Positions 38,598 to 39,332 of a DNA stretch of 64,000 nucleotides are shown here, piece by piece. The translations under genes were made by a program, and so were the position numbers. Position 1 is the first letter of the stretch. Each line of letters starts with the position of its first letter. The stretch is from a bacterium (GTDB lineage: Bacteria > Sysuimicrobiota > Sysuimicrobiia > Sysuimicrobiales > Segetimicrobiaceae): contig DATGHU010000005.1 of the NCBI GenBank assembly GCA_035307765.1, positions 118,446 through 182,445 of the forward strand. The letters run 5' to 3'. The notes below the pieces were generated by a model. The model was not told where the DNA came from. It saw nothing but the letters and a program-made list of their open reading frames with translations, and searched no databases.

Positions 38598-39332
38598 CTA
38601 GCTGAATGAACGCGCCTCGTCCCCCCGGAGGCGTGCCGCTCGGTGCACGCGCACGGCTGCTCCATAGCCGACGATGAGCGGGTGTGGATGTTCGGCGGCC
38701 GAATTGGCTTGCGGCAAGAACAACGTGGCGAGAAAGAACGGATGGCTCGGGAGCTCCACGATCCGTGCCTCCCCCTCCCCCCCCACCCCGCTGACAATCA
38801 TCCCGCCCGCCTCAAGCTGCCGCCGGTACTCTGGGTTCACGCCGTAGTTGCAGTAATAGGCTTCTATTGACTCCTCCGCCCCGTAGAGAGCGGCGGCGCG
38901 AGAATTCGGGAGGATGGTAACCCGCTGCTTCTGCCCCACGAGCGAACATGCCAGCGGCGTAACGACCAGGCACTTGCCCTCGGGGTCGGTCTCTGCGTGA
39001 TCCGCATCCTCGAGCCCGAGGACGTTGCGCGCGAACTCAACGATCGCGTGCTGAAAACCCCCTCAGGTTCCGACCAGCGGTACGCCACGCTCGCGTGCAT
39101 ATCGAATCGCCCGGAGCGCCCCAACCATGCTGCGGTAGGGGCTGGCCGGAGCGATCCAGAGTCCGTCAAAGCCAGCCAAGCGTGCTGAAGGATCCCGTCC
39201 CACATCGTCGGTGCCGATCCACGCAAAGTCAAGGTCGGCGTGGGTTAGGGCGGCGTTTGTGAATTGATGCGTTTCGTTGCTCGGGCTGTAGTCACCAATG
39301 ACGCAGATTTCCGGACGGACCACAATCGCCAC
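38598..39332 (-). CDS. Predicted selenoprotein: CTP-synthase C-terminal-like class I glutamine amidotransferase domain
   Basis: One 244-codon gene read through a single in-frame UGA. The first 89 residues form the N-terminal half of a class I amidotransferase fold (ICVIGDYSP, FDGLWIAPASPYRSM, YARERGVPLVGT). UGA (39063-39065, codon 90) then falls exactly at the nucleophile position of the GT-C-GGFQH elbow, and the frame continues without further stop through VVTPLACSLVG, YYCNYGVNPEY and SHPFFLATLFLPQ to a normal stop. NCBI-type annotation knows a family called CTP synthase C-terminal region-related (seleno)protein, which this matches. The classic His-x-Glu pair after the elbow is Leu206 and Gln208, so ammonia release from glutamine is unlikely; a redox or other Sec/Cys chemistry is possible. 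GTG 39332 has TATACT 6 nt upstream and no SD, suggesting a leaderless message. Confidence 0.8.
39027..39051 (-). promoter_or_regulatory. Candidate bacterial SECIS hairpin
   Basis: Eleven nt after the UGA codon the message can fold CGCGA/TCGCG (5 bp, 39044-39048 with 39030-39034) around a 9-nt loop TCGTTGAGT. Two more pairs follow below a single mismatch. The loop begins about 19 nt after the UGA, inside the window expected for SelB-binding elements in bacteria, and contains G and U residues. The fold was found by eye. Confidence 0.5.

Follow-up and report, generated by a model that had tools for sequence, protein, structure and literature searches.

The closest described relatives of the gene treated here are proteins of the NF004836 family. 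In the text of deep-Sep (2025), a COG0504 glutamine amidotransferase selenoprotein is reported from Desulfosediminicola, with TGA-containing homologues elsewhere (PMC12013277), and a 2026 review lists NF004836 as a selenoprotein with the motif GxUxG (PMC13188914). Going by these texts, the selenocysteine (Sec) form of the family is already in print and is not a new discovery. The text passages of both sources, figures and supplements aside, propose no function for the protein and make no mention of its missing histidine or of its Cys129/Cys161 pair. The member described here lies in a 64,000 nt stretch (the window) of contig DATGHU010000005.1, from a bacterium of the Segetimicrobiaceae (assembly GCA_035307765.1), and is predicted to carry Sec at residue 90. 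Added to the published picture are Sec forms in Rokubacteria, Chloroflexota and relatives of the host, three designs of the hairpin that follows the UGA, the absence of the catalytic histidine from all 65 aligned members, and a further pair of cysteines (C129 and C161), with C161 at the site of His469 of CTP synthase.

Probable decoding of the UGA codon

Features of the gene are collected in Table 1. A reading made earlier from the DNA letters (the sequence-only reading) had placed the gene correctly, and translation with TGA as U returns the joined protein it proposed. A single in-frame UGA (39065-39063) interrupts the frame 39332-38598, so the standard code splits this NF004836 gene into two open reading frames (ORFs). 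The frame beyond the UGA is open, as had been said, for 154 codons to the TAG and not for 42. The two halves match the NF004836 profile separately (85.1 and 194.6 bits) and jointly, the read-through protein scoring 302.2, which bears out the UGA as the sole stop within one amidotransferase-like domain and membership in the family annotated as CTP synthase C-terminal region-related (seleno)protein. None of 14 control genomes reached the curated cut-off. A PF00117 match (27.9 bits, threshold 22.8) and the nucleophile elbow place the protein in the class I glutamine amidotransferase fold. It is not a CTP synthase: the TIGR00337 (PyrG) score is 123.4 bits, below the cut-off of 462.75, and the N-terminal synthase domain is absent.

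Table 1. Features of the predicted selenoprotein gene; positions are those of the window.
Feature	Position	Strand	Evidence
Predicted selenoprotein gene, 244 residues, Sec90, NF004836 family	38598..39332	minus	GTG start, TAG stop; 302.2 bits against a cut-off of 260
UGA codon at the nucleophile position, residue 90, equivalent to Cys379 of E. coli CTP synthase (1s1m alignment)	39063..39065	minus	Codon reading and homologue comparison
SECIS-like hairpin GCACGCGAUCGUUGAGUUCGCGCGC, apical loop GUUGA at 39041-39037, loop 21 nt past the UGA	39027..39051	minus	Fold and bacterial SECIS rule
Codons U+5 to U+12, with synonymous sites frozen across Sec-type genes	39027..39050	minus	Synonymous identity scan
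Cys129 codon, conserved family cysteine	38946..38948	minus	Alignment A1 65/65; DNA-read set 45/49
Cys161 codon, aligned with His469 in E. coli CTP synthase	38850..38852	minus	Alignment A1 65/65; DNA-read set 46/49
Leu206 codon, where CTP synthase has His515	38715..38717	minus	Alignments A1 and 1s1m
Gln208 codon, where CTP synthase has Glu517	38709..38711	minus	Alignments A1 and 1s1m

Relatives exchange UGA and cysteine codons at the nucleophile. In the search for relatives, 8000 candidates of about 134-427 residues were scored and 6041 of them matched with E no higher than 1e-10, true CTP synthase fragments included. Of 49 distinct members read from DNA, counting that of the window and with repeat fetches of the same gene removed beforehand, 25 carry TGA at the nucleophile codon and 24 carry TGC or TGT, so that residue 90 is Cys or UGA in every one. 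Among 20 related genome loci, TGA occupies this exact codon in 15 and TGC or TGT in the other five; recurrence on this scale makes chance, or the sequencing error that the sequence-only reading had named as an alternative, very unlikely. Within the host's family, 12 genomes counting the host itself, four contain a member that passes the cut-off, and each of these four members has one TGA. For the class of the Rokubacteria genome G102 there are matches in 20 of 95 genomes (18 TGA, 2 TGC), and for Chloroflexota in 12 of 400 genomes at 1e-60 (15 matches in total, 3 with TGA).

The host genome (3.82 Mb, 96% complete, with the window in its contig C5) encodes selA, selB, selC and selD, the four genes by which the sequence-only reading had proposed to judge the case. 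Contig C13 carries a tRNA-Sec with a UCA anticodon (72.1 bits, the next match in the same search being a tRNA-Ser), selB (309 bits, or 333 when a second piece is added) and selA (G000:C13:93049-94164, 502 bits), and contig C34 carries selD (L019, G000:C34:292205-293125, 393 bits), which has an in-frame UGA of its own near the N-terminus. No tRNA genes were found inside the 64-kb window. Since selA is over the cut-off in 10 of the 11 other genomes of the host's family, Sec use there is broader than the NF004836 gene. It is present in 14 of the 15 Sec-form genomes and in four of the five Cys-form genomes of the 20-locus set, and its lack therefore does not explain these Cys forms. A separate pyrG, whose Cys, His and Glu are all present, is found on C10, so CTP synthesis need not depend on the Sec90 gene.

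Three further details of the machinery were seen. An N-terminal piece of selA lies at the edge of contig C50 (C50:3-365); both selA pieces are at contig ends and share 40 profile positions (82-121), compatible with one gene split by assembly. Two relatives of the host (G001 and G007) have two selA matches each above the cut-off. The UGA of selD has a hairpin about 33 nt downstream, with a G-first loop (GUC).

The codons that form the hairpin after the UGA are synonymously frozen. Across 20 Sec genes of the window's type, synonymous identity at U+5 to U+12 is 0.968 of comparable pairs, compared with 0.581 over the remainder of the gene (rank 1 of 198), and across all 25 Sec genes it is 0.871 against 0.554 (rank 2 of 198 eight-codon windows). 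A smaller earlier run gave 0.959 against 0.577 for 17 Sec genes (rank 1 of 196) and 0.593 for 10 Cys genes. The conserved stretch folds as GC-A-CGCGA-U-C-[GUYGA]-G-U-UCGCG-C-GC, with the loop 21 nt after the UGA, and in one relative (L048) the U-U mismatch becomes a U-A pair through a Phe-to-Ile change. The 48-nt segment from the window UGA has a folding energy of -19.9 kcal/mol (z -2.53), equalled by 1 of 200 shuffles. The model for a bacterial selenocysteine insertion sequence (bSECIS), as set out in the text of the review, specifies that the loop has 3-9 nt and the stem 4-16 bp, with a G within the first two loop positions, a spacing of 16-37 nt after the UGA and an energy of at most -7.5 kcal/mol (PMC13188914). 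With its GUUGA loop, spacing of 21 and -10.2 kcal/mol, the window hairpin obeys this published rule; the SECIS check suggested by the sequence-only reading thus yielded a compliant hairpin after the UGA, at frozen synonymous sites. The start that reading gave, 11 nt past the UGA, is right if two outer G-C pairs are included. A second design, in L095, L096, L097 and L101, has another stem, of 8-9 bp, under a GGU or GUU loop at a spacing of 20, and a third, in L111, has yet another stem, the loop GGUCG and a spacing of 20. The designs differ in stem bases, and the distance from loop to UGA is nearly constant.

Several observations count against assigning the hairpin this role. The 24 Cys genes show a mild excess of their own at U+5 to U+12 (0.492 against 0.413, rank 13 of 198). 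The loops of L083 and L094 begin with A and have no G in the first two positions. L096 and L101 have short hairpins of -7.4 kcal/mol, just above the -7.5 limit. When any hairpin that satisfied the rule was accepted in a free search, all Sec genes but L094 and L101 (23 of 25) had one, and so did 10 of 24 Cys genes, where the best such hairpin is never at a spacing of 20-21. The rule is weak taken alone, given this pass rate among Cys genes, and was rejected as sole evidence. An Rfam scan of the window returned no SECIS family and no family at the gathering score; near the UGA there was an unrelated weak match only.

Taken together, the codon comparison, the machinery and the frozen hairpin indicate that the UGA is very probably decoded as Sec in the cell. 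For a true stop, whether a pseudogene mutation or a sequencing error, nothing speaks beyond the stop itself and the two relatives off the loop rule, and it is hardly credible when UGA stands at the same codon in 25 distinct genes from several phyla, the part downstream is conserved and a strong synonymous freeze accompanies the UGA. Equally improbable is a reading as tryptophan or another standard residue. It can appeal to the database protein P0004, which has W at residue 90, and is opposed by the presence of tRNA-Sec, selA, selB and selD, by the hairpin that follows the UGA, and by the Cys found in the other 48 UGA-less homologues of alignment A1 (65 rows: the window protein, the 20 related loci and 44 of 120 listed proteins, 16 rows being Sec). 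The Trp of P0004 may itself be a UGA translated under another code.

Several origins of Sec in the NF004836 family are suggested by the phylogeny. A careful tree of 56 rows, 20 of them Sec, from which the pyrG rows, four of 20 database proteins and nine of the 49 loci (including the Sec form L111) were excluded, requires at least three Sec/Cys state changes, and the Sec forms come out together in none of its 200 bootstrap trees (0%). Multiple origins are only suggested because the approximately unbiased (AU) test does not reject a single Sec clade (p 0.109). A quick tree of 73 rows gave four state changes, two of them forced; its outgroup of four pyrG rows, two of them badly cut, was unusable. 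The Cys-type members L089 and L092, from two genomes of the Rokubacteria class, cluster with the Methylobacter plasmid copy, apart from the Sec forms.

Active-site residues and possible chemistry

Alignment A1 shows Sec or Cys at residue 90 in 64 of 65 rows; the remaining row, a database protein, has W. The elbow GT(U/C)GGFQH is nearly invariant, and Gln94, Glu99, His112, Cys129, Glu157, Cys161 and Arg190 are fully so. We take His515 and Glu517 of CTP synthase to be catalytic, and Gln383, Glu403 and Arg470 to bind glutamine. The position of His515 is occupied by Leu, Val, Gln or Cys in all 65 rows, the catalytic histidine being lost throughout, and that of Glu517 by Gln (59), Glu (5) or Met (1); the Cys-His-Glu triad of an active glutaminase is absent. 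The sequence-only reading had pointed to this loss of partners at Leu206 and Gln208, and the alignment confirms it as a trait of the family, not one specific to the window protein. The Gln383-aligned residue is kept in 65 of 65 rows and the Glu403-aligned one in 63 of 65, and residue 162, aligned with Arg470, varies among N, S, R and D. His469, whose place Cys161 takes, is presumably the second conserved histidine of class I amidotransferases. Exceptions to the two cysteines in the 49-member set are confined to four Chloroflexota relatives (L109, L112, L113 and L114), three of which are second copies within their genomes. All four have the altered elbow GTCLGFHY and lack Cys129, three also lack Cys161, and the two residues seem to have been lost together.

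Given a lost catalytic histidine, a cysteine (Cys161) in place of another, a retained Cys129 and Sec as the nucleophile, we tentatively infer that the pocket is a selenol/thiol centre and not a glutaminase. The new selenol or redox chemistry at which the sequence-only reading hinted is likewise a tentative proposal. Sec is ionised at neutral pH, so no histidine would be needed to activate it. The UGA at the nucleophile codon would be read as Sec with the help of the downstream hairpin, and Sec90 would act as the selenol centre with Cys129 and Cys161 as partners. Cys161, in place of the pocket histidine, and Cys129 would lie near Sec90, and a selenenylsulfide or disulfide between Sec90 and either cysteine might form during turnover, the substrate being a small molecule with an amino group that Gln94 and Glu114, both retained, would hold. 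This proximity and this form of turnover are possible, at somewhat below an even chance. We regard as evenly balanced the statement as a whole, namely a stand-alone domain of CTP synthase type with hairpin-aided Sec90, acting as a selenol centre with Cys129 and Cys161 and hydrolysing no glutamine. Its most far-reaching form is doubtful: an amidotransferase fold turned redox enzyme, with both pocket histidines replaced, a reversible Sec90-Cys161-Cys129 selenenylsulfide, and Sec arisen more than once with a hairpin of its own each time.

Three points weigh against a selenol/thiol centre. Many members have Cys, and four of the five Cys-form genomes carry selA, which implies that the reaction can run without selenium. 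Cys129 aligns ambiguously to CTP synthase. No gene for a redox partner was found in the neighbourhoods of the loci compared, 23 at first and 45 later. The chief competing reading is a histidine-free acyl transferase, in which Sec is made and the enzyme retains amidase or acyl-transferase activity: Sec90 would attack a gamma-glutamyl-type amide, and the reactive selenoester would pass the acyl group to an amine. Selenoesters favour aminolysis, the fold is shared, and the Gln383- and Glu403-aligned residues are kept. A His-to-Asn mutant of the related SpuA is recorded with a glutamyl-thioester (7d50, structure title), so a nucleophile can attack without the histidine. This rival is nevertheless somewhat unlikely, with the histidine missing from every aligned member and the Arg470-aligned residue variable, and it leaves the strong conservation of Cys129 and Cys161 unexplained. 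Alternatively, Sec90, Cys129 and Cys161 might bind a metal or serve as a thiol sensor in a non-catalytic binding protein, as three conserved Sec/Cys positions, an absent catalytic histidine and the lack of a neighbour gene at a fixed place would allow; this is quite improbable beside a nearly invariant elbow, and binding a metal does not usually require Sec.

Gene neighbourhoods

Neighbouring ORFs were clustered around 23 and later 45 loci (L026 and L131 being the same genome), and 20 neighbour proteins were named by Pfam. Several rokubacterial loci share genes for a luciferase-like monooxygenase, an acyl-CoA dehydrogenase and a branched-chain amino-acid transporter, and Pseudomonas loci have a different set. 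Across phyla, recurrence is limited to large, common superfamilies at varying distances; no partner gene at a fixed place was found across lineages in the 45 loci, and none is claimed for this reason. Function from gene neighbours was rejected as a line of argument. Neighbourhoods do not separate the selenol/thiol from the acyl-transferase reading. Matches occur in 65 plasmid records, many of them to ordinary CTP synthase; five were inspected, three of these without listed genes. In a Klebsiella record, the Cys-type homologue (L076:5331-5837) adjoins, in divergent orientation, a 2-thiouracil desulfurase (PF04463, DUF523), and DUF523 is described in the deep-Sep text as another new selenoprotein family (PMC12013277).

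Implications and comparison with known systems

If the proposed loss of glutaminase function is correct, many entries named "CTP synthase" would neither make CTP nor split glutamine; by hand count, about 50 of 120 relatives among the matches listed bear that name. Natural Sec/Cys pairs in an amidotransferase pocket without histidine would offer a chance to test why cells pay for selenium at a nucleophile, and the mechanistic question of the NF004836 family is now testable.

The gamma-glutamyl hydrolases PuuD and SpuA (6vtv, 7d4r) share only 18-20% identity with the Sec90 protein, which lacks what we take to be their catalytic histidine; a SpuA mutant, H221N, is on record. Compared with the amidotransferase domain of PyrG (E. 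coli 1s1m and 5tkv; S. solfataricus 3nva), the synthase domain is missing, His515 and Glu517 have no counterparts, His469 is replaced by Cys, Arg470 is not kept, and Cys379 is replaced by the predicted Sec. The Sec cases of NF004836 in print are the nearest, with the same family, Sec at the same position of GxUxG and a SECIS-like hairpin; relative to the deep-Sep case, the Sec forms described here come from lineages other than Desulfosediminicola.
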